From the IMG/VR virus record IMGVR_UViG_3300047326_000020, positions 1 to 24,745 of that record: 24,745 nucleotides of DNA; one strand, written 5' to 3'. Positions 4,513-22,925 of the stretch are shown piece by piece. Position 1 is the stretch's first letter; every line of letters begins with the position of its first letter. The DNA is from a virus. The position numbers were made by a program, and so were the translations under genes. The notes below the pieces were generated by a model. It saw only the letters and a list, made by a program, of their open reading frames with translations. It ran no database searches and was not told the DNA's origin.

Positions 4513-4814
4513 GCGAGGTCCGCCTGGATGGGCTCACCGCGCGCGTGCATCTGCGCCGCCTCGCGCGCAGCCTCGGGTCTGATGTACGGGCCGGAGAGAT
4601 GGCGCGGCGGATCGGTGAGCGCGACGAACCAGCCTTCCGTTCCCACCTCCTCGACGTGGCGCCTGATAAGGCGATAGCGACCGCAGTCACTCACGAGAGT
4701 GTTGATCGTTTCGCGATCCCACTTCAGAGGCCTTCGTGGGTCACGCTGTCCGGTCTTGCCATTTGCGTTGCGCTTGCAGATCGCATGCGCTTCCTCGAGC
4801 GTGCGCACTGTCAT
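4509..4814 (-). CDS. Hypothetical phage protein, 101 aa
   Basis: ATG at 4814 overlaps the initiator stop (ATGA). The sequence alternates a basic N-terminal half (CKRNANGKTGQRDPRRPLKW) with a beta-like segment, YRLIRRHVEEVGTEGWFVAL, and a helical tail (PEAAREAAQMHARGE). The middle resembles small single-domain phage proteins with a YxLxR...GWxxAL strand pair, but no named family is clear. As the gene directly downstream of the replication initiator it may assist replication; that is context only. Confidence 0.6.
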   Translation of the reverse strand: MTVRTLEEAHAICKRNANGKTGQRDPRRPLKWDRETINTLVSDCGRYRLIRRHVEEVGTEGWFVALTDPPRHLSGPYIRPEAAREAAQMHARGEPIQADLA

Positions 4815-5371
4815 GTTTTCCTCCGTCTTGCCGCCTCTTCGAGAAGGTAGGCAACGCTCGTCGAGGCGCTGCCTTGCTCAAACTCCTGCATCGCCCTCCG
4901 ATATTGCGCTGCGCTCTCCGTGCTCATCCGGACTCGAAAGCAGATGTCCTTCGCCCGCGCTTCGAGCTCCCGGTCTTCTGCCGAACCGCTCTTTGAGCGC
5001 TCAGAGGTTATTAGTGACGGATCTATGACGGTTCGAGGTGCACGTGGTGCACCTAAAAATGCATTCATTTGCACGTAGCTAGGTGCACGTGGTGCACCTA
5101 AAGACGGTGTTGGGTGCACCAGATGCACCTTAAACAGGTTGCTGTGGCGATGTCTGTGGATAACTTCGATGTGCCCGGCTGCCTGCAAACGTTGGAGCGC
5201 GAGCATGACGGTGCGCTTGGCGAGCTCGGTTCGAGCCATGAGCTTGGCAATGCTCGGAAAGCACCTATTGCCGTTATCGTCAGCAAAATCCGCGAGGGCC
5301 AGGAGGACCAATTTATCGGTGCTGTTGCCCACGCGCAGGTCCCACACGGCGGCGATCATCTTTATGCTCAA
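4811..5371 (-). CDS. Winged-HTH replication initiator (O-like)
   Basis: A 186-aa protein whose N-terminus is a helix-turn-helix_36-type winged helix: VWDLRVGNSTDKLVLLALAD, then NGNRCFPSIAKLMART and TVMLALQRLQAAGHIEV. This is the usual N-terminal domain of phage O/DnaD-like initiators. The TTG start at 5371 is chosen because AGAGGGGA lies just upstream and because SIK before the first helix is a typical N-terminus. An ATG at 5359 and two upstream starts (5389, 5404) are alternatives. The central linker (two LGAPRAP peptides) is encoded by palindromic repeats, as expected when the origin lies in the initiator gene. The C-terminus is helical and charged and probably recruits the host helicase machinery. 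Confidence 0.78.
   Translation of the reverse strand: MSIKMIAAVWDLRVGNSTDKLVLLALADFADDNGNRCFPSIAKLMARTELAKRTVMLALQRLQAAGHIEVIHRHRHSNLFKVHLVHPTPSLGAPRAPSYVQMNAFLGAPRAPRTVIDPSLITSERSKSGSAEDRELEARAKDICFRVRMSTESAAQYRRAMQEFEQGSASTSVAYLLEEAARRRKT
5036..5133. repeat. Iteron-like palindromes inside the initiator gene, probable replication origin
   Basis: Two identical 22-bp units start at 5036 and 5081, with the core AGGTGCAC, three bases, GTGCACCT followed by AAA. A third diverged unit occupies 5112-5133. Each is a near-palindrome with 8-bp arms. A half-site (TGCACGTA) lies between units 1 and 2 at 5070-5077. A further AGGTGCAC half-site is at 5633-5640, upstream of the initiator. The spacers are AT-richer than the surroundings. 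As in lambda ori inside O, repeats coding for the linker of the initiator are the expected binding sites of that protein. Origin function is inferred. Confidence 0.7.
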
Positions 5372-5491
5372 CGCTTCCCCTCTGAACATAAGTATTTTTT
5401 TCACGTCGAGCTCGGGCTATGCCCGGGGAGGACACCTGATCGCTTAAGCTTCGGCCGCATCTGCCGATAGAGCGCTCACGGAGGAGGCCCT

Positions 5492-5791
5492 ATGAAAATC
5501 AAAGTTTGTGCGTTGGCACTCACACTCGCCGGCTGCGTGACCACATCCGACAATCGTCCCGATGGGGAACGTAATCGGCTGATTCCCGGCCTTTTGTCGC
5601 ATCGCGCTCTTGGGGCGTATGAACTCCCGCATAGGTGCACGGTCATGCGGCCTCGGCTTTCATCTGCGTCAACCGATCGTGTAACGCTTGGATGCGATTC
5701 ACCGATGGGTCGGCGATCTTTCCAGCGCGGAATTTCTTCAGCCACTCGTGGTCGACAGAACCGCCTTCCGGCGCGATCTCGCGCAATTTGA
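5492..5791 (+). CDS. Possible short lipoprotein on the opposite strand
   Basis: An ATG at 5492 follows an excellent Shine-Dalgarno (GGAGGAGG at 5480-5487). The first residues form a lipoprotein signal: MKIKVCALALTLAGC, with the lipobox LAGC. After about residue 50 the frame runs antisense through the HTH gene and turns Arg/Ser-rich like a shadow frame, so the real protein may be truncated or the frame fortuitous. No good promoter is visible. The 5372-5642 stretch holds no other convincing gene; a minus-strand 62-codon frame (5444-5632) lacks a ribosome-binding site. If real, this could be a moron lipoprotein expressed from the prophage. Confidence 0.3.
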   Translation: MKIKVCALALTLAGCVTTSDNRPDGERNRLIPGLLSHRALGAYELPHRCTVMRPRLSSASTDRVTLGCDSPMGRRSFQRGISSATRGRQNRLPARSRAI

Positions 5792-5846
5792 CCCCGCGCT
5801 TTATCGCCGACTGAAGAAGCTTGCGCGTGGATCGGAGCAGGGTCAT
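5643..5846 (-). CDS. Small helix-turn-helix regulator (Cro/repressor-like)
   Basis: A 67-aa protein with an N-terminal helix (LLRSTRKLLQSAIKRG), a short turn, then VDHEWLKKFRAGKIADPSVN, in which EWLKKFR is the expected recognition helix. This EWLxKFxxGKIxxP pattern is typical of small phage HTH proteins. It is too short to carry a CI-type cleavage or dimerisation domain. Its ATG lies at the predicted transcription start of the leftward promoter, so the message may be leaderless. It is the first gene of the leftward early operon and faces the rightward operon across four shared operators. It is therefore the obvious candidate to bind them, as a Cro-like protein or a minimal repressor. Confidence 0.75.
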   Translation of the reverse strand: MTLLRSTRKLLQSAIKRGVKLREIAPEGGSVDHEWLKKFRAGKIADPSVNRIQALHDRLTQMKAEAA

Positions 5847-5853
5847 GACGCCT

Positions 5854-5883
5854 ATATTGGGGAAAGAGTTCCTCCGCTGTCAA
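5854..5883 (-). promoter_or_regulatory. Leftward early promoter
   Basis: On the minus strand there is a perfect -35 TTGACA (5883-5878), an 18-base spacer and a weak -10 CAATAT (5859-5854). Operator O2 abuts the -35 and operator O1 fills the spacer. The expected start of transcription falls at or next to the A of the HTH gene ATG (5846), so there is little or no 5' leader. Confidence 0.6.
5859..5872. promoter_or_regulatory. Operator O1
   Basis: GGGGAAAGAGTTCC, one of four copies of the partial palindrome GGGGAA-N4-TTCC in the divergent intergenic region. It lies within the spacer of the leftward promoter, where a bound protein would block RNA polymerase. Confidence 0.7.
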
Positions 5884-5897
5884 GGAACTCATTCCCC
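5884..5897. promoter_or_regulatory. Operator O2
   Basis: GGAACTCATTCCCC; its reverse complement GGGGAATGAGTTCC fits the GGGGAA-N4-TTCC consensus. It directly abuts the -35 box of the leftward promoter and starts 25 bp from O1. Confidence 0.7.
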
Positions 5898-5967
5898 GCG
5901 CTATGCCCTGGGTAAGCGGAAGTAAACCTCCCTTCTGTTGCGACGTCGATCACAGTGGCGTCCTTTT

Positions 5968-5981
5968 GGGGAAAGTTTTCC
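5968..5981. promoter_or_regulatory. Operator O3
   Basis: GGGGAAAGTTTTCC, the third copy of the operator. It ends immediately before the -35 box of the rightward promoter, mirroring the O2 arrangement on the other promoter. Confidence 0.7.
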
Positions 5982-6010
5982 TTGACTATGGACGGTAATG
6001 GGGAAATAAT
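5982..6010 (+). promoter_or_regulatory. Rightward early promoter
   Basis: TTGACT at 5982-5987, a 17-base spacer and AATAAT at 6005-6010 give a near-consensus sigma-70 promoter. O3 abuts the -35 and O4 covers the -10. It reads into the rightward operon starting at 6041, whose ribosome-binding site (GGGAG) is at 6027-6031. Confidence 0.8.
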
Positions 6011-6013
6011 TCC
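6000..6013. promoter_or_regulatory. Operator O4
   Basis: GGGGAAATAATTCC, the fourth operator copy, 32 bp from O3. It overlaps the -10 of the rightward promoter completely, so occupancy should repress the rightward operon. Confidence 0.7.
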
Positions 6014-6040: not shown

Positions 6041-6286
6041 ATGCAGCTTCAGACCCTCGGCAACTTGATCGGCAGCTCGAGCCACCTGGGCTCCTGCCCA
6101 ACGTGCGGCGCCCAGCACATGAGCACCCACGACCGCGTGCTTCCGAACCCCTCGGCCCCCTGGCAGTTCGTCTGCGCGAGGTGTGCGCAGACGCTCAAAG
6201 CGATCATCGAGTTCGAGGCGATCATGGACCAGGCTGTGAAGAGCCACCAAGACGAGCTCGGGCGCATCGAGTGGGAGCGCACATGA
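6041..6286 (+). CDS. Small zinc-finger-like protein, first gene of the rightward operon
   Basis: An 81-aa protein with two Cys pairs, CPTC at about residues 19-22 and CARC at about 45-48, plus nearby His residues. This is the layout of a single zinc ribbon. The C-terminal third is a charged helix. The ATG at 6041 has GGGAG ten bases upstream and lies about 25 bp after the promoter -10. As the first gene under the O3/O4-controlled promoter it is likely expressed very early. I do not recognise a named family. Confidence 0.7.
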   Translation: MQLQTLGNLIGSSSHLGSCPTCGAQHMSTHDRVLPNPSAPWQFVCARCAQTLKAIIEFEAIMDQAVKSHQDELGRIEWERT

Positions 6287-6483
6287 GCGCCGAGATCATC
6301 GACTTTCGATTTTTACAGATGCAGGCCCTCGCCCGCCAGATCGCCAAGGCCCGCGCTGCGGGTGACGGCCAGGTGGTCGACGAGCTCCTCCTCGAGGCCG
6401 AGCTCGTGTTCAACGCCTTGAAGCGCGAGCGCCTGGGCGAGATCGACCTCGCCGCCCGGGCGCGTGAGGAATGGGGCACGTGA
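6283..6483 (+). CDS. Small helical phage protein, 66 aa
   Basis: The ATG at 6283 overlaps the preceding stop (ATGA). The protein is almost entirely alpha-helical and charged: MQALARQIAKARAAGDGQVV, then LLLEAELVFNALKRERLG. No Cys, membrane segment or motif is visible. It is probably co-translated with the 294-aa protein that follows at a GTGA overlap. The function is unknown. Confidence 0.65.
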   Translation: MSAEIIDFRFLQMQALARQIAKARAAGDGQVVDELLLEAELVFNALKRERLGEIDLAARAREEWGT

Positions 6484-7364
6484 GCACCGAGCTCGTCATC
6501 TCCGCCCCCCTCCCGGTGCTCGCGATCCGCGAGCGCTCGCAGCACGTCCAGGCGCTCATCAAGGACCTGATGGTCGAGGAGGTGCACTACATGACCATCC
6601 CCGGCACCTCGGGCAAGGCCTTGACCAAGCAAGGCTCGGAGATGCTGCTCGCCTCCTTCCAGATCGCGGTCGAGCCCGAGATCGAGGACAAGAGCGACGC
6701 CGATGCGGTGCGCTACACGGTGCGCATCACCGGCCGGCATATGGGCTCCGGCATCATCGTCGGTGTGGGCGTCGGGCGCTGCTCCTCGAACGAGGAGAAG
6801 TACAAGTGGCAGGAGGCGGTGTGCCGCGAGGAGTTCGACGCGACGCCCGAGACCCGCCGGCGCATCAAGTGGTACCACAAGAAGGGCGGCAACGGCGTCT
6901 ATTCGGTCTACCAGGTGCGCACCAACCCTGAGGACAAGGCGAACACCGTCCTCAAGATGGCGAAGAAGCGCGCGCAGGTGGATCTGTGCCTGACCGCCCT
7001 CGCCGCCTCGGATGCGTTCAAGCGTCAGCCGCGGCCGCCAGATCCGCGCGGCACGCCGGTCTCGAGCAAGGATAAATCGAGTCAACAGGGCCTGGGGGAT
7101 GATGCCCGCGCACCGGCAGCCACGCCGAGCGCGGGAGGAGTGAGCGCCCCCGGAGGAAGGGGACCCGTGGCTGGGTCCCCTTCCTCTCCGCGCCCCGCCA
7201 CACAAGCGCAGCTCGGGCTCATCCGCCAGAAGCTCGATCGCGCCGGCATCGCCGAGAACTACTTCTTCGCGCAGTTCGAGATCGGCCGCTTCGAGGATCT
7301 CGCCTTCGAGCGCGTGAACCAGGCGCTCGCCTGGATCGATGAGCTCGACAAGGGACCGCCGTGA
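6480..7364 (+). CDS. Phage protein of the NTVLKMAKKRA family, possible recombination function
   Basis: A 294-aa protein. The GTG start at 6480 overlaps the previous stop (GTGA) and has GAGG upstream; an ATG at 6471 is too close to that site. Residues about 20-65 carry VEEVHYMTIPGTSGKALTKQ. Next come a strand pair with GVGVGRCSSNEEKYKW at about 100-115 and the helix ANTVLKMAKKRAQVDLCLTA near 162-181. These blocks occur in order in a widespread prophage family of unproven function, often near ssDNA-annealing or recombination genes. A Pro/Ser-rich linker then leads to a C-terminal domain (QLGLIRQKLDRAGI...FFAQFE) like a small helical binding module. The DNA-recombination role is inferred from neighbourhood. 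Confidence 0.7.
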   Translation: MSTELVISAPLPVLAIRERSQHVQALIKDLMVEEVHYMTIPGTSGKALTKQGSEMLLASFQIAVEPEIEDKSDADAVRYTVRITGRHMGSGIIVGVGVGRCSSNEEKYKWQEAVCREEFDATPETRRRIKWYHKKGGNGVYSVYQVRTNPEDKANTVLKMAKKRAQVDLCLTALAASDAFKRQPRPPDPRGTPVSSKDKSSQQGLGDDARAPAATPSAGGVSAPGGRGPVAGSPSSPRPATQAQLGLIRQKLDRAGIAENYFFAQFEIGRFEDLAFERVNQALAWIDELDKGPP

Positions 7365-7622: not shown

Positions 7623-7811
7623 ATGCTGATTCTGACGCGACGAGCAGGGGAAGTGATCAAGATCGGCGACCACATCGAGGTCACGGTCATGGGGGTGAAG
7701 GGCAATCAGGTGCGGATCGGCATCAAGGCACCGCCGCAGGTGGTCGTCGATCGTGAGGAGATCGCGGCCAAGCGCATCGCGAATCCCGACTGGAGAAAGG
7801 CAGGCCCGTGA
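7623..7811 (+). CDS. csrA: CsrA/RsmA-type RNA-binding regulator
   Basis: A full-length 62-aa CsrA. It starts [10 protein letters not shown], with the RNA-contacting L4, R6 and R7, continues through [10 protein letters not shown], and has V42, R44, E46 and I47 at exactly the positions of bacterial CsrA, so RNA binding should be intact. CsrA dimers bind GGA motifs in mRNA leaders, usually blocking translation. The ATG at 7623 follows GAGGAGG. The gene is under the phage rightward early promoter, so the phage may use it to redirect host post-transcriptional control or to regulate its own messages. The C-terminal tail (about residues 50-62) is short and basic. Confidence 0.95.
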
Positions 7812-7961
7812 AGATCGGCGAGGAGACGTATCTCGGCGATGGGCTCTTCGTGTCCTTCGATGGCTACCCAGATCTGCCTGCGTGCCGAAGGGAACAAGGT
7901 CTACCTCGAGCCCGCGGTGTGGTACACGCTCCTAAGCGCGCGCAGGTGGATCTGTGCCTGA
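7808..7961 (+). pseudogene. Frameshifted small phage gene
   Basis: A GTG start at 7808 overlaps the csrA stop. The first 20 residues (YLGDGLFVSFDGY) match the start of a common small phage protein, but the continuation (QICLRAEGNKVYLEPAVWYT) is in another frame. One extra C in the CCC run at 7867-7869 explains the shift. After restoring the frame the protein would end at the TGA at 7959-7961, where the sequence passes into a copy of another gene. It is either a decayed gene or a base-calling error in the assembly. Confidence 0.65.
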
Positions 7962-8211
7962 CCGCTCTGGCGGCCTCTGACGCCTTCAAGCGCCAGCCAG
8001 CGCCCCCGAAGTCCCCCCACCCCCTACCAACGGGCGTCCCCCAGCGAGCGCCGCTCCTGGGGCTTCTAATGCGGCCGTGTCGTCGGGTGGGTCTGCTGTG
8101 GATAAACCCAGTGCCCCGGTGCAGCCGAAGCTCGCCACACCCGCCCAGGTCATCAAGCGCAAGGCCGACCAGGCGGGGCTCTCGGACACCTATTTCCTGG
8201 CGCAGTTCGAG
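7934..8211 (+). pseudogene. Decayed second copy of the C-terminal half of the 294-aa gene
   Basis: The first 32 bases (7934-7965) are identical to 6966-6997. The translation KRAQVDLCLTALAASDAFKR matches the earlier gene in frame. A frame change near the C5 run at 8003-8007 then leads to a Pro/Ser linker and LATPAQVIKRKADQAGLSDT plus YFLAQFE, which aligns with the end of the 294-aa protein (QAQLGLIRQKLDRAGIAENY, FFAQFE). The divergence of the second part suggests a related but different parent gene, brought in by recombination rather than by a recent tandem duplication. The N-terminal half is absent. Confidence 0.7.
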
Positions 8212-8269
8212 GTTTTGGCTTCGGTCTCGAGGCGACCGGCACCGCGTAAGGCGGGATCCGCGGCGGCCG
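8212..8269. repeat. 58-bp imperfect direct repeat, copy 1 (copy 2 at 8707-8764)
   Basis: The segment starting GTTTTGGCTTCGG shares about 50 of 58 positions with 8707-8764, including GAGGCGACCGGCACCG and GGCGGGATCCG. Copy 2 lies inside the 71-aa gene on the minus strand; copy 1 has no intact gene. The two copies flank the att-like junction in direct orientation. Confidence 0.75.
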
Positions 8270-8298
8270 GCGCTGCCAGGGCCACACGGGCCGGCGGG

Positions 8299-8316
8299 CC
8301 GTTCCACGTGGAACGG
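8299..8316. promoter_or_regulatory. parS-like palindrome
   Basis: CCGTTCCACGTGGAACGG is a perfect 18-bp palindrome whose core GTTCCACGTGGAAC matches the ParB-binding centromere site consensus known from pseudomonads and other bacteria. It lies 21 bp from the tRNA-like segment. No parA or parB gene is in the window, so host ParB would be the candidate ligand. It is not a terminator: the hairpin is followed by A residues, not T, on the plus strand. Confidence 0.5.
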
Positions 8317-8336
8317 TAAAAAAACGTTAATATTCA

Positions 8337-8381
8337 TGGTGGTGAGAGAGCGACTCGAACCCTCGACCTCGGCATTATGAG
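8337..8381 (-). other. tRNA-Met-like 3' half, probable phage attachment site (attP core)
   Basis: Read on the minus strand, the segment runs from an anticodon loop CTCATAA (anticodon CAT) through the 3' anticodon strand TGCCG, a 5-base variable loop AGGTC, a T-arm with loop TTCGAGT, an acceptor strand TCTCACC, the discriminator A and an encoded CCA. The T-stem has one G-G mismatch. The sequence 5' of the anticodon loop does not pair (TGGGT instead of CGGCA) and no D-arm or 5' acceptor strand exists, so this is not a functional tRNA. Identity beginning at the anticodon loop and running to CCA is the hallmark of tyrosine-integrase att cores. Confidence 0.65.
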
Positions 8382-8455
8382 ACCCACCCTCTACGAAATT
8401 CCCGGTGTTTTGAGGGCCTTGCACCCACATTTTCCCACCTAAACCGGCCTGGAGG

Positions 8456-8473
8456 GGGCACAAAAAGGGCACA
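8456..8473. repeat. Paired GGGCACA direct repeats, possible integrase arm sites
   Basis: GGGCACA occurs at 8456-8462 and 8467-8473, 11 bp apart, which is one helical turn and on the same DNA face. They lie about 75 bp from the tRNA-like core. Closely spaced short direct repeats beside a core are typical arm-type integrase sites. Only two copies are seen, so chance is not excluded. Confidence 0.35.
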
Positions 8474-8553
8474 CGGATTTCGCACGTATAAGCCCCAGGA
8501 GCGGCGATCGACAATTCGCGCGTAGTCTCGGGTTCGGAGCGGCAGAGGATGGA

Positions 8554-8575: not shown

Positions 8576-8791
8576 CTACCGGCCTCCGGTGATCCTTTTC
8601 CAGGCCTTGTGCATGCCGGTGCGCGACTGCGCCTCGAGGAGCGCCTTCAAGGCGTCCGGGTCGGCCGCCGCGGGGTCGAGCTCCTGGACCTCGATGCCCG
8701 CTTCCTGTTTTGGCTTCGGCTTTGAGGCGACCGGCACCGAGTACGGCGGGATCCGGGGCGGCGGGGTCGGCTTCGACCAGGGCCATCTCAT
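8576..8791 (-). CDS. Small proline-rich phage protein, 71 aa
   Basis: ATG at 8791 overlaps the preceding stop (ATGA). The N-terminal 35 residues are proline- and lysine-rich (MRWPWSKPTPPPRIPPYSVP) and the C-terminal half is helical (ADPDALKALLEAQ, then MHKAWKRITGGR). It is the last gene of the leftward virion/lysis operon. Part of its coding DNA (8707-8764) is repeated at 8212-8269 beyond the operon end. The function is unknown. Confidence 0.65.
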   Translation of the reverse strand: MRWPWSKPTPPPRIPPYSVPVASKPKPKQEAGIEVQELDPAAADPDALKALLEAQSRTGMHKAWKRITGGR

Positions 8792-14431: not shown

Positions 14432-15757
14432 TCACTCGTAGGTGAATTCTGTTGCGTAACCGTGCGCCTTGAGTTTCGGGAGCTCCTCCGCGAGCTTCTC
14501 CCCGATGTCATCGCGATAGATCATGTTCGGGATGTGGAGCTCTTTGAGCGTGCCGTACGCACGCTCGGTCGCGCGCTTCACCGTCGAGCCCTGGCCGGAC
14601 ACCACGCAGATGTAGTCCCCGGTCGTGCACCACATCGGCTTTTCCGCCACCTTGTTGTCGCCGTCCATCTGCGGGAGGGTCTCGATCTTGACGGCTTGCG
14701 GCGACAGGTAGCCCTCGTTCTTCGCTGTGACACCATAGATCGGGATGCCATCGAGCTCGGCCTTGGTCGCTTTCGAGTACGGGTAGTCGGGCTGCGCGAT
14801 CACCACGCCGCACGCGATCTTAGGTTTCACCTCGAGGGAGTCGATCCCATGGCAGGCGTCCAGCATCCACTCGACCGGATCGTCTTTATGGCACCCCCAC
14901 ATGATGTTCGCGGCCGGCCACCCGAGCCGCATGGTGAACTCCAAGGGCATCGCCTGGCCCTGCTCGTTCACGATGCAATTGACGTCGATGTCGCCCAGGT
15001 GCCCGAGCTCGACGAGTGCCTCCTCGAGGGGCGCGAGTACTTCTGTGCCGAGCTTCGATGTCGATACGTATTTCATGACGGTCCCGGCCTCGCCGCAATT
15101 CGGACCCGCATCGCCGGAGAGGAGCTTCTTAAACTCGAAGTTCTCGTTGTAGGGACCGACGAAGCCGTCCTTGCCCATCCAGCGCGAGACACCCATCTCC
15201 ACGCCCGGCACGAAGGTCTGCAGCATCACCGCGCCTTTCGGGTTCATCTTGAGGCGCTGCCAGCGATCGAGGCGCGCGACCATATCCGCCGCGGACTTCG
15301 CGACGTAGGAGAGACTCTTGTCGTCCTCATCGCCGAGCGTCTTGAAGACATACCGCTCGCCGGTCTTCATCACGTGCGCGCGGGCCGCTTCCAGGGTCGC
15401 AAACTCTTCGTAGGGCGGCACCTCGATCCCGTGCTTCTCGAAGAACGCCATCCCCAGGGCTCGCTTCACTTCGAGGGCTGCCGACCGTACCGACGGACCG
15501 AAGATCGGAAAGCCCATTTTCTTCAGGCTGTCGAGCTTCGCCATGAACTCGTGGTTGCCGGTCGGCACGATGAGATCCGCCCACTTGGCCTCGGCTAGCC
15601 AGTTCTCGACGCGCTCGATGTGCTTGAAGCCGAGCCCCGTCTCCTTGTGGTTCTCCTTCGACATCCAGATCTTGACCTGGTGGCCGGCCTTCGCCGCGCG
15701 CACTGCGAGACCCATGCCCTCGCCCACCGAGTCTAAGTTGATGATCAGCACCTTCAC
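14432..15757 (-). CDS. PurD-like ATP-grasp ligase
   Basis: A 441-aa protein organised like phosphoribosylamine-glycine ligase (PurD). It has an N-terminal nucleotide-fold strand MKVLIINLDSVGEG, a middle domain, and the ATP-grasp region from about residue 100. GERYVFKTL carries the ATP-binding Lys strand, GAVMLQTFVPGVEM the second lobe. DIDVNCIVNEQG plus LEFTMRLGWP is the metal-binding acidic strand, comparable to EFNxRFGDPE of PurD. A GTG start at 15757 overlaps the previous stop (GTGA). The family joins a carboxylate to an amine. Its position among virion genes argues against housekeeping purine synthesis; the real substrate is unknown. Confidence 0.8.
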   Translation of the reverse strand: MKVLIINLDSVGEGMGLAVRAAKAGHQVKIWMSKENHKETGLGFKHIERVENWLAEAKWADLIVPTGNHEFMAKLDSLKKMGFPIFGPSVRSAALEVKRALGMAFFEKHGIEVPPYEEFATLEAARAHVMKTGERYVFKTLGDEDDKSLSYVAKSAADMVARLDRWQRLKMNPKGAVMLQTFVPGVEMGVSRWMGKDGFVGPYNENFEFKKLLSGDAGPNCGEAGTVMKYVSTSKLGTEVLAPLEEALVELGHLGDIDVNCIVNEQGQAMPLEFTMRLGWPAANIMWGCHKDDPVEWMLDACHGIDSLEVKPKIACGVVIAQPDYPYSKATKAELDGIPIYGVTAKNEGYLSPQAVKIETLPQMDGDNKVAEKPMWCTTGDYICVVSGQGSTVKRATERAYGTLKELHIPNMIYRDDIGEKLAEELPKLKAHGYATEFTYE

Positions 15758-20051: not shown

Positions 20052-20507
20052 TCAGCCTCCGATCCATTTCGCGTAGTAGGTCTCGACCTTCGTAAAGCCG
20101 AGGCGCTCGAACATCCAGGCGGCCGAGAAGTGATCCTTCACGCCCGCGAAGATACGGTGCACGCCCCTCGCCCGCGCGAGCTTCTCGACGAGCGCGAACA
20201 TCTCGAGGCCCATGCGCGCGCCGCGTGCGTCCGGCCGCACCCAGTAGATGTCCGTGGTCAGCGTGATGCAGGTGCGGTAGTGCAGGCCCGGCGCAACAAA
20301 GTTCACGCTGTAGCCGGCGAGCGTGCCGTCCTCGCGCGCGGTTACCACCATCACCATCCCCGCCTCGTGCCGGCGCTGGTACTCGTTGTAGTCGGGATCG
20401 AGCGGCACCTGGTCCTTGTCGAGCGCGAGCTCCTTCCAGTGCGCCGGAAAGAGCGGCTTCGCCTCGAGGACAAACTCCGGGTATTGCTCCTCCTGCACGG
20501 TGATCAT
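20052..20507 (-). CDS. GNAT-family acetyltransferase
   Basis: A 151-aa GNAT protein. The acetyl-CoA pyrophosphate-binding loop is RGARMG at residues 95-100 (the family R/Q-x2-G-x-G/A site), placed after the strand TDIYWVRPDA and before the helix LEMFALVEKLARARG. HRIFAGV and AAWMFERLGF form the later motifs. ATG at 20507 overlaps the oxygenase stop (ATGA). Such GNATs appear in podophage virion operons. The acceptor, a virion or host protein or a small molecule, is unknown. Confidence 0.85.
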   Translation of the reverse strand: MITVQEEQYPEFVLEAKPLFPAHWKELALDKDQVPLDPDYNEYQRRHEAGMVMVVTAREDGTLAGYSVNFVAPGLHYRTCITLTTDIYWVRPDARGARMGLEMFALVEKLARARGVHRIFAGVKDHFSAAWMFERLGFTKVETYYAKWIGG

Positions 20508-21199
20508 GGTTCGCCCGCCTTGCCGCTCACCAGTGCGAGCGACGTGGTGAATTCGGGCTCCTCCGCGAGGATGCGCTTCGCATTCTTGATCTGCTCGGGC
20601 CCGATCACGGAGCCGAGCGGCACCGTCTGCGGCAGAAGCCCTTCGGGCGGCGCGTGGAAGGTGCGCACGTCGATGATCAGGTGGATGCGATCGAGCACGC
20701 CGTTGTTGCGCACCTCGTGCTCGAGCTCGTTCCGGAAGTGCCAGAGCGAGCCCGTCTTCATGTGGATCTCTTCATCGCCGCAGCGGATGAGAGCGCCCGG
20801 GGACGACTGCAGCACCGCGTGGTAGCGGCTCCAGTACTCGGCGTGCACCGGCGTGTCGGCGTGCGGGAAGATGCGCCCGCCCGGGCGGAGCTTGTTGATC
20901 ATGCAGCGGCCGAGGCGCTCGCCCTGCACGCGCTGCATCAGCGGGAAGATGATGTCGCGCGCCGCCGGCAGGTGCCGGTAGCCGTCCATCCACACACACT
21001 CGTGCTGGTCCTTGGTCGAGCGCTCGAGCTCGGTGACGCTCGCCGGCGGGAAGCGCAGGAAGATCGTCTCGGTGTCGCCGAACGGGCCTTGCGGATAATC
21101 GCGCAGGTACGTGTCCGCCTTCCAGAGCTCGGGCAGCAGGTGGATCTGGTGCAAGAGCGGCACCGGGTCGATGTTCCCGAGCAGCATGAAGTTCTTCAT
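20504..21199 (-). CDS. Asp/Asn beta-hydroxylase-like 2-oxoglutarate oxygenase
   Basis: A 231-aa protein with the double-stranded beta-helix signature of Fe(II)/2-oxoglutarate oxygenases: H113-A-D115 in FPHADTPVH, H161 in LEHEVRNNG and R171 in LDRIHLIIDVR. The order RPGGRIFPHAD...GSLWHFRNELEHEV is that of the aspartyl/asparaginyl beta-hydroxylase family. ATG at 21199 overlaps the previous stop (ATGA). It probably hydroxylates a side chain or small molecule. Its place between the tail-hub genes and the ejection genes, next to a GNAT, suggests a modification role during virion assembly, which is inference. Confidence 0.82.
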   Translation of the reverse strand: MKNFMLLGNIDPVPLLHQIHLLPELWKADTYLRDYPQGPFGDTETIFLRFPPASVTELERSTKDQHECVWMDGYRHLPAARDIIFPLMQRVQGERLGRCMINKLRPGGRIFPHADTPVHAEYWSRYHAVLQSSPGALIRCGDEEIHMKTGSLWHFRNELEHEVRNNGVLDRIHLIIDVRTFHAPPEGLLPQTVPLGSVIGPEQIKNAKRILAEEPEFTTSLALVSGKAGEP

Positions 21200-21453
21200 A
21201 CCGACGCTCCGGAGGCGTTGACCCACACGGGCCCGGTCGGATTCGAGAGCCAGATCGGAATGCCGAGCGTCTTGTCGAAGTAGGGCTTGCCCACGTAGAG
21301 ACCGCTGGTCGGCCGCTGCGCCGTTGTGCCGGAATTGGAGCAGTCCTGCAGGATCAGCTGCGCGGTCGAGAACCAGCCCGCCCAGGCCGGCGTGAAGTGC
21401 GTCCGGTCCTGGAACATCGGCAGCGCCGGGAGACCCCCGAGGGGCGAGCTCAT
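21196..21453 (-). CDS. Conserved small podophage protein, 85 aa
   Basis: ATG at 21453 overlaps the gp10-like stop (ATGA). The protein contains FTPAWAGWFSTAQ, then GLYVGKPYFDKTLGIPIWLS and a final VWVNASGASV. The YVGKPYFDxTLGIPIW block is one I associate with small proteins found in many podophage and siphophage tail operons, with no known function. It may be a minor virion component. A long alternative upstream frame is a shadow of the gp10-like gene. Confidence 0.7.
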   Translation of the reverse strand: MSSPLGGLPALPMFQDRTHFTPAWAGWFSTAQLILQDCSNSGTTAQRPTSGLYVGKPYFDKTLGIPIWLSNPTGPVWVNASGASV

Positions 21454-22925
21454 CGCGGCCTCCCGCTGGGCGATGAGACCATCGCGGCGCCACCGTTGAT
21501 CACGAAATTGACCGGGTCGGTGAGACGGAGCCGCGCGTAGAAGAAGCGCGCGCGGCCGCAGCGCCGGCGCGTCACCCGGGTGCGGCTCTGACCCGTCTTG
21601 CCGAGCGCGATCCACTGCTCCGGGCCCCACGCGCGGGTGTCGCGCGAGACCTGCAGCATGATCATCGGGTTGTAGCCTTGCGCGAGCGGTGAGGTGAGGC
21701 CGACGCCCGTGTCCATGTCGAAATAAATGCCGCCCACCCGGAAGTAGTTCTGATCGTTGACCGCGCAGCGCGTCACCACCTCGCGCACGATGGTGTTGCC
21801 GTTGTCGGTGTAGAGGCCGACGACGGGGTTGTAGATGTTCGGCGCGTTGTAGTCGGTGATCAGGGTATTGCCCTGATAGACGGCGCTCCAGCGGCCGATG
21901 TGTCGCGCAGCGTAACCCGATGTAACACCGGTCTGCGTCTCCGACCACATGTCGGTGGTCGCATTCCAGAGGAACGAGCGGTTCATCGTGGGGAAGGTGA
22001 ACTGCGCAAATTTCGCCTCGGCCGTCTGGTAGGCGAGCGCCTCGCAATCGTTGTAGGTGCTGAAGCTCTGGATGATCTTGTCGATGTCGGGCGTCGAGAT
22101 CGGCTTCGCCTGATAGCCCTGGATGCGCGCGAACTGCAGCCCGCCCTCGAGGGTCTGCGCCAGGAACACGATCGAGTCGGCGACGTGCACCCTCGAGAAG
22201 ACCGCGGCCAGGCCGTACTCGGTCGCGGTGTTTTGGATGTACGTGAAGGGCTCGGTGGTGAGGCCCGAGTTCTGCCAAAACTCCAAGTGCGTCGTCGAGA
22301 AGGGGATCAACAGGCCGCCCAGCTGGTCGACGGCGAGGATCGTGTCGTTGTACTGCGAGGCCTCGCCGAACGAGAGCGCGTTCCAGGTCGAGAGGTCGTT
22401 GAAGCTCGACACGAAGAACTGGTTGGTGCCGGGGAGCTCGGCGATCGCGAAGCCGTTGAGCACAGTGAGCGTCTGCGCACCGTTCGGCACGCCGGCGCTC
22501 GTGCACACGGAGAACTGCCCGGTCGAGGGCACGTAGAAGTACAGGTTCTTGCCGTCGACCATGCCGATCTGCGTCGGGTTCGCGGCGAAGGTCATCGGCC
22601 CACTCTGGCTGTTCAAGTTGCCCGTCGCGAGCACGCTCGCCGCGCCGCCGGCGGTGTCCGGTGCTGCCAGCGAGAGGAACTGGCTCCCGATCGCGGTGTA
22701 GAGCGCGTTCGGGTTCGCGAGGATCCCGCGCGGCGTCTGGCTCACCGCCGCCGGCACGGTCATCGCGAGACTCATTCCGGGCGTCGGCAGCACCGTCACC
22801 GAGGTGCGGTCCTGGTCTTTGCGCACCTGGTAGTAGCAGTTCAGGCGCCGCTGGCGCGTCACCACCTTGAGGCCTGCGTAGATGCCATCGCCGAAGAACG
22901 GCACCTTTTTCCATTTGACGGTCAT
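21450..22925 (-). CDS. P22 gp10-like packaged-DNA stabilisation / tail-hub protein
   Basis: A 491-aa protein starting ATG at 22925 with an ATGA overlap to the gp4-like gene. It is a repetitive beta-rich protein; about eight blade-like segments of 45-60 residues can be traced, for example LPGTNQFFVSSFNDLSTWNA, DQLGGLLIPFSTTHLEFWQN and VADSIVFLAQTLEGG. The style and place immediately after the gp4-like protein fit P22 gp10, the hexameric head-closure tail hub. RTRVTRRRCGRARFFYARLR near the C-terminus resembles the usual end of that family. It would seal the capsid after packaging. Confidence 0.8.
   Translation of the reverse strand: MTVKWKKVPFFGDGIYAGLKVVTRQRRLNCYYQVRKDQDRTSVTVLPTPGMSLAMTVPAAVSQTPRGILANPNALYTAIGSQFLSLAAPDTAGGAASVLATGNLNSQSGPMTFAANPTQIGMVDGKNLYFYVPSTGQFSVCTSAGVPNGAQTLTVLNGFAIAELPGTNQFFVSSFNDLSTWNALSFGEASQYNDTILAVDQLGGLLIPFSTTHLEFWQNSGLTTEPFTYIQNTATEYGLAAVFSRVHVADSIVFLAQTLEGGLQFARIQGYQAKPISTPDIDKIIQSFSTYNDCEALAYQTAEAKFAQFTFPTMNRSFLWNATTDMWSETQTGVTSGYAARHIGRWSAVYQGNTLITDYNAPNIYNPVVGLYTDNGNTIVREVVTRCAVNDQNYFRVGGIYFDMDTGVGLTSPLAQGYNPMIMLQVSRDTRAWGPEQWIALGKTGQSRTRVTRRRCGRARFFYARLRLTDPVNFVINGGAAMVSSPSGRPR

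Follow-up and report, generated by a model that had tools for sequence, protein, structure and literature searches.

How is a pair of divergent early promoters controlled when four near-identical operators lie on them and a 67-aa protein is the only regulator encoded beside them? This question is raised by positions 5854-6013 of IMGVR_UViG_3300047326_000020, a linear fragment of 24,745 bases; the window analyzed in this work is the entire IMG/VR record. An earlier note saw in this arrangement a minimal single-protein switch. The comparative analysis leads us to another reading, which we consider likely, namely that the region, run by Cro feedback, would be the pR/OR-pL/OL early control of a lambda/P22-type podovirus that was temperate in the past and is probably lytic today.

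Judging by its genes, the contig derives from a podovirus with P22-type modules, including a head-closure protein Hc3 (P22 gp10 type), a P22 gp7 ejection protein, a lysozyme and an O-like replication protein. The genomes of its relatives have 37-41 kb and, by comparison, the contig is without a packaging/head segment of ~15 kb, the counterpart of which in G004 carries packaging, head, methyltransferase and ParB-like genes. A sister contig, G014 (L158), shows 95.8% identity to the window over 15 kb; it starts inside the integrase scar described below, right of the OR2-OL2 junction, with the immunity region lying outside it. Among other features of the window, an imperfect 12/18-nt tandem repeat (2625-2923) encodes a Ser-Gly/Asp-Gly-rich stretch of a minus-strand ORF, and the clade mostly conserves the genes of an ATP-grasp (GARS-like) protein (14432-15757), an Asp/Arg beta-hydroxylase (20504-21493), an acetyltransferase (20052-20507) and a cupin (1007-1414).

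Operators and promoters of the 5854-6013 region

The motif GGGGAA-N4-TTCC has four exact matches in the 24,745-base contig, all of them within 5859-6013: O1 (5859-5872, plus strand), O2 (5884-5897, minus strand), O3 (5968-5981, plus strand) and O4 (6000-6013, plus strand), which are equivalents of OR1, OR2, OL2 and OL1, respectively. In shuffled sequence, 0.025 exact matches are expected per contig and 0.003 within 400 bp shuffled locally. A palindromic weight matrix, constructed from 43 operators of nine relatives with the window left out, ranked the same sites as the top four of the contig, i.e., O3 (22.3 bits, the best one), O2 (19.0 bits), O1 (18.3 bits) and O4 (18.2 bits), the next site scoring 10.2 bits. 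With the matrix and the shuffling in agreement, the four operators were confirmed as genuine, non-random sites lying where the earlier note had placed them; the search for the 14-bp operator elsewhere, which it had proposed, gave no further exact match within the 24.7-kb contig. The asymmetry of this 14-bp sequence did not hold, as the operator is a palindrome, (T)GGGGAA-N4-TTCCCC(A), with weaker outer bases, and its arm on the -35 side reads TTCCTT because it overlaps TTGACA, hence the apparent asymmetry.

The leftward promoter, pR, has its -35 box (TTGACA) at 5878-5883 and its likely -10 box (CAATAT) at 5854-5859, both on the minus strand, with an 18-bp spacer and 7 nt ahead of the cro ATG; this -10 is weak, whether it is read as CAATAT at 18 bp or as CCAATA at 17 bp. 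The rightward promoter, pL, is a good one, with TTGACT (5982-5987, plus strand) and AATAAT (6005-6010, plus strand) matching the consensus at 10 of the 12 positions and separated by a 17-bp spacer. O2 abuts the -35 of pR and O3 that of pL, O1 fills the pR spacer, and O4 covers the pL -10. The proposed common design of the two promoters, with one operator ending at the -35 and another one over the spacer or the -10, is therefore retained in this part, while the strict symmetry of the two sides is not, the spacing being 23 bp between O1 and O2 and 32 bp between O3 and O4.

In ten phages (the window and nine relatives, the distances for L024 and L023 being counted from realigned starts) the cro ATG is situated 6-10 nt past the -10. 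Because this distance is all that separates the -10 from the start of cro, the mRNA of this gene is predicted to be leaderless in the window and in the relatives; the cro mRNA of PY54 was measured as leaderless (PMC4488713).

In the leftward operon of the window, cro is followed by the gene of the O-like replication-initiation protein (4811-5404, minus strand; phrog_1032, E 3e-19, HTH_36), so that cro heads the pR replication operon. A 22-bp inverted-repeat iteron, AGGTGCACGTGGTGCACCTAAA, occurs three times within the O-like gene (5036-5133, the third copy at 77%), which in this respect resembles gene O of lambda, inside which the origin lies. The first gene of the rightward (pL) operon encodes an 81-aa zinc-ribbon-like protein (6041-6286, plus strand), for which only weak Pfam Zn-ribbon matches were found. 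Further on, there is the gene of a 297-aa early protein (6471-7364, plus strand; phrog_10048) with 54-69% identity in L053-L060, the "erf-like" label of which comes from operon position only. The operon is closed by a phage CsrA homologue (7623-7811, plus strand; PF02599, E 2e-21), which is also kept at this place in L053-L056, L058, L060, G015 and G016.

The Cro protein and the CI genes of related phages

The 67-aa protein (5643-5846, minus strand) is a putative Cro-like XRE/HTH repressor, as indicated by orthology, profile and position. Its orthologue was found in L005 (67% identity; 42-67% among the relatives), with a dN/dS of 0.18 for the two genes, dS being near saturation. The profile search pointed to XRE regulators in the PDB (E 0.002-0.5). 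The AF2 model is helical (pLDDT 81), and its best Foldseek match was the DNA-binding domain of ComR (TM 0.66, E 0.14), with no match at E <= 0.001. Compared alone with Pfam, the protein matched no family, including P22_Cro (PF14549), which is matched by proteins of L054, L056, L057 and L059. We therefore regard it as the Cro orthologue on the grounds of orthology and position, the fold alone being no proof. Sixty-seven amino acids without a cleavage domain is the usual size of Cro.

The same operator code and register were identified in nine relatives (L005, L023, L024, L025, L027, L033, L040, L043 and L044); L005 was found by the orthologue of the 67-aa protein, and the other eight by an operator plus -35 search and a Cro profile. 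All nine have the arrangement OL1, OL2 / CI-type gene / (OR3) / OR2, OR1 / cro, and the CI-type gene is often accompanied by a small gene; in L005, for instance, the divergent gene upstream of cro encodes a 113-aa XRE protein and has the same operators on both its flanks. In these phages, about 23 bp separate OR1 from OR2, which abuts TTGACA, and 32-33 bp separate OL1 from OL2, which abuts TTGAC. The window follows this register: the 23 bp between O1 and O2 are found as the OR1-OR2 spacing in L005, L024, L025 and L027, the 32 bp between O3 and O4 in L005 and L043, the O2-TTGACA junction is the same as in the relatives, and the O3 region shares 21 bp of identity with OL2/-35 of L024. OR3, where present in the relatives, is located about 22 bp beyond OR2; it is absent or degenerate in L023, L033 and L044, though Cro is kept there.

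What distinguishes the window is the gap between OR2 and OL2, which has 420-880 bp and a CI-type XRE gene in all nine relatives and 86 bp in the window. The CI-type proteins of the relatives match HTH_3, HTH_31 or HTH_26 and mostly have about 113-116 aa, and the searched records yielded no S24 domain (CI was assigned by the CI profile in L023 and by inspection in L043). The CI profile matched five of the searched records and left the window unmatched; a comparison of the 129 ORFs of the window with Pfam revealed no integrase, no HTH_3 and no S24. Two statements of the earlier note are borne out by these searches, i.e., that no CI-size repressor is encoded in the window and that the 67-aa HTH protein is the sole regulator beside the operators. 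Its view that the locus is unlike the CI/Cro pair has to be abandoned, since at least nine relatives combine this Cro, these operators and this register with a CI between the promoters, and the locus thus represents half of such a pair. Nor does the missing cleavage domain indicate a minimal switch, as this is normal for Cro and the 113-116-aa CIs of the relatives lack S24 as well.

The place where the relatives have OR3, cI and the downstream small gene(s) is taken in the window by a 70-bp interval (5898-5967) with undetectable homology, and neither the spacing comparison nor the matrix scan revealed an operator at the OR3 position. The 86-bp OR2-OL2 junction is known from the window contig alone: no other contig turned up in a scan for divergent operators separated by 55-85 bp, and part of the 70-bp interval, used as an exact query, gave no match. 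The operator-plus-minus-35 pattern was also found in L010-L021, L026 and L028-L032, which were rejected as immunity loci and taken as chance matches, as they mostly have no neighbouring operator set. Furthermore, a second specificity with the same layout was observed, i.e., GGTAA-N4-TTACC operators with related Cro/CI pairs in L160 (1920-2460; G015), L041 and L047.

Remains of the integration module and CI-less relatives

The window carries further features of a temperate phage, namely an attP and an integrase gene reduced to its last 16 codons. In place of the integrase body there is a scar (7934-8270) with two partial duplicate copies, of which 7934-8007 is 85% identical to 6966-7039 (within the gene of the 297-aa protein) and 8212-8270 is 88% identical to 8707-8765. 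It is followed by the last 16 codons of the deleted tyrosine integrase (8280-8330, plus strand), reading GHTGRRAVPRGTVKKR before the stop codon, 14 of the 16 residues being identical to the integrase C-terminus of L053, GHTGRRGVPRGTSKKR, also with its stop. Judged by the 297-aa gene (69%), the nearest relative is L053; its tyrosine integrase gene stands after the CsrA gene and ends just ahead of a tRNA 3' half, and window positions 8280-8482 align to 7397-7600 of L053 with 81% DNA identity. The attP core of the window (8337-8381, minus strand) is such a tRNA 3' half, from the anticodon loop CTCATAA to CCA. It was recognized by its sequence and by the occurrence of the same core beside integrases: CTCATAA...CACCACCA directly adjoins the integrase in six phages (L148, L149, L053, L151, L152 and L154). 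There is no complete tRNA at 8337-8381, and the half was missed by Rfam and ARAGORN. A single mismatch in the T-stem sets the core of the window (GAGTCGCTC) apart from that of L053 and five further phages (GAGTCCCTC); G014 shares this mismatch, which perhaps reflects drift after integrase loss.

The scar is common to the window and G014 (100% over 382 bp, identical from 7999 onward). As G014 was assembled independently, the integrase lesion cannot be put down to faulty assembly of the window. It was also observed that the two contigs, identical over these 382 bp as far as the attP core, diverge abruptly at the core (8382), as if arms had been exchanged there.

Cro, CI, integrase and this attP occur together in the relatives L053/G001, G015 and, in part, G016. 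A different state is found in L054-L059 (five contigs of 37-41 kb and L057 of 15 kb), where a lone P22_Cro-type gene stands between the divergent operons with no CI between, and whole-record searches revealed no integrase, no S24, no CI-profile match and no HTH_3 over the cut-off. A homologue of the 67-aa protein also heads a primase operon without CI in Paracoccus phage vB_PmaS-R3, Sphingomonas phage Eidolon, Stenotrophomonas phage ply2008005c and Microcystis phage Me-ZS1. These four resemble the window in that the small HTH gene heads the replication operon and is divergent from an operon of the ATPase/nuclease type with no CI between, but they differ from it by protein identities of only ~45-55% and by intergenic regions without repeated O1-O4-like operators. 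Homologues of the L051/L052/L006/L007 type, with no CI and no repeated operators, were used for alignment depth and the CI-less comparison only. A Cro-type gene without CI is thus common, and the retention of both operator pairs is the peculiarity of the window.

A probable lambdoid control region without cI

According to the reading that we prefer, the segment between OR2 and OL2, comprising OR3, the promoter and gene of the CI-type XRE repressor and a small gene, would have been lost. On infection both early promoters would fire, leftward transcription reaching cro and then the O-like replication genes, and rightward transcription the genes of the 81-aa, 66-aa, 297-aa and 86-aa proteins and CsrA. 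Cro would then accumulate, bind O1/O2 and O3/O4 as a dimer and repress both promoters, its own included. The operators, their register and the Cro orthology can be read from the DNA; the binding of Cro to all four sites is suggested by its place in the family, and negative feedback would be its consequence. As CI and OR3 are gone, an autorepressed pair of early promoters rather than a two-state switch is expected. Likewise, the contig contains neither CI nor an integrase, with the scar in place of the latter, and an obligately lytic phage is therefore to be expected. The surviving operators are perhaps still recognized by CI proteins of related prophages (of the L024/L027 type), which may make the phage sensitive to their immunity.

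The point of greatest doubt in this reading is the absence of cI from the genome as a whole, since the OR2-OL2 junction comes from one contig. Given that this contig is a linear fragment and the relatives have 37-41 kb, the phage could still be temperate, with CI (and perhaps a second recombinase) encoded in the absent ~15 kb. We find this distinctly unlikely: the CI of the relatives always lies between OR2 and OL2 and their integrase at attP, and both places are altered in the window. Moreover, no CI was found in the counterpart segment of G004, in the whole records of G002-G007 (no HTH_3 over the cut-off, no S24 and no CI-profile match) or in the next 7.7 kb of G014, which cover part of the absent ~15 kb, and a CI displaced into that segment is unlikely. 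It is very improbable that the assembly dropped the cI segment or joined two strains, and that the real phage has cI. A junction present in one contig only would fit such an error, and the duplicated stretches near 7.9-8.8 kb might mislead an assembler, but the identical scar in the independent G014 shows at least the integrase lesion to be real, the lack of CI is the norm in L054-L059, and each of the four operators is in the correct register with its own promoter.

Other alternatives concern the role of Cro. It might be mainly OR3-specific, since OR3 is exactly the missing site and Cro of the N15 type binds OR3 only (PMC4997575, PMC4488713); the operators would then be relics read only by the CI of resident prophages, and the early promoters would not be regulated by the phage. 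This seems improbable to us, as L023, L033 and L044 keep Cro despite the absent or degenerate OR3, all four sites of the window are at the consensus level with cro intact, and many relatives as well as the named phages have kept Cro-like genes in the absence of CI. Conversely, Cro may have been re-used after the loss of cI as the sole governor of both operons, and the locus would then be no relic but a selected single-repressor timing circuit, which might also maintain a carrier-like off state; we hold this to be unlikely. We find it hardly credible that the 67-aa protein would by itself hold and release two stable states, as a self-sufficient one-protein switch of a novel type. It is true that no other regulator is encoded beside the four near-identical operators, yet autorepression of both promoters without an opposing regulator gives no obvious second state, and a lambdoid region minus cI explains the anatomy in full, the integrase being lost too. 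The switch of the earlier note is replaced here by a lambdoid early control region without cI.

Among the closest known models is the immunity region of lambda and P22 (pL/OL - cI - pR/OR - cro), with which the window shares divergent early promoters with operators on each, cro as the first gene of the replication operon and a second early operon in the opposite direction. It differs in the lack of cI, OR3 and the cI promoter, in having two operators per side, in its operator code (GGGGAAN4TTCCCC) and in a Cro without a match to the Pfam P22_Cro family. Points of resemblance to the immB regions of phiKO2, N15 and PY54 are a CB repressor without self-cleavage residues, the five operators of phiKO2 and N15 (three OR, two OL) and the leaderless cro mRNA of PY54 (PMC4997575, PMC4488713). 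These phages differ from the window by the presence of CI and by OL situated ahead of a plasmid replication gene (PMC4997575, PMC4488713). Cro of phiKO2 and PY54 binds OR3 only (PMC4997575, PMC4488713); if the same were true here, its site would be lost and the four operators idle. A small family of CI/Cro pairs, short and non-cleaving, also emerges from the comparison, with the operator codes GGGAA/TTCCC and GGTAA/TTACC (the latter in G015, L041 and L047).

As for the loss of lysogeny, the window may be compared with D29 and TM4, natural lytic deletion derivatives of temperate phages (PMC5712189, PMC3203893), of which D29 lost its repressor and TM4 the integration region and, plausibly, the repressor (PMC5712189, PMC3203893). 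Similarly, temperate relatives of the window (L053/G001, G015 and partly G016) carry a repressor and an integrase where the window has deletions. The phages and repressors are unrelated, and the window has lost cI and the integrase body but keeps cro, attP and the integrase tail. It may thus represent a lambda-type phage caught after the temperate-to-lytic step, with operators, Cro, attP and integrase tail still readable and temperate relatives at hand. Such a phage would offer a natural test of the role of Cro once CI has been lost, and it could show whether phages without CI remain under the immunity of related prophages, as is the case for D29, which keeps its operator sites and stays homoimmune with L5 (PMC3203893, PMC5712189).
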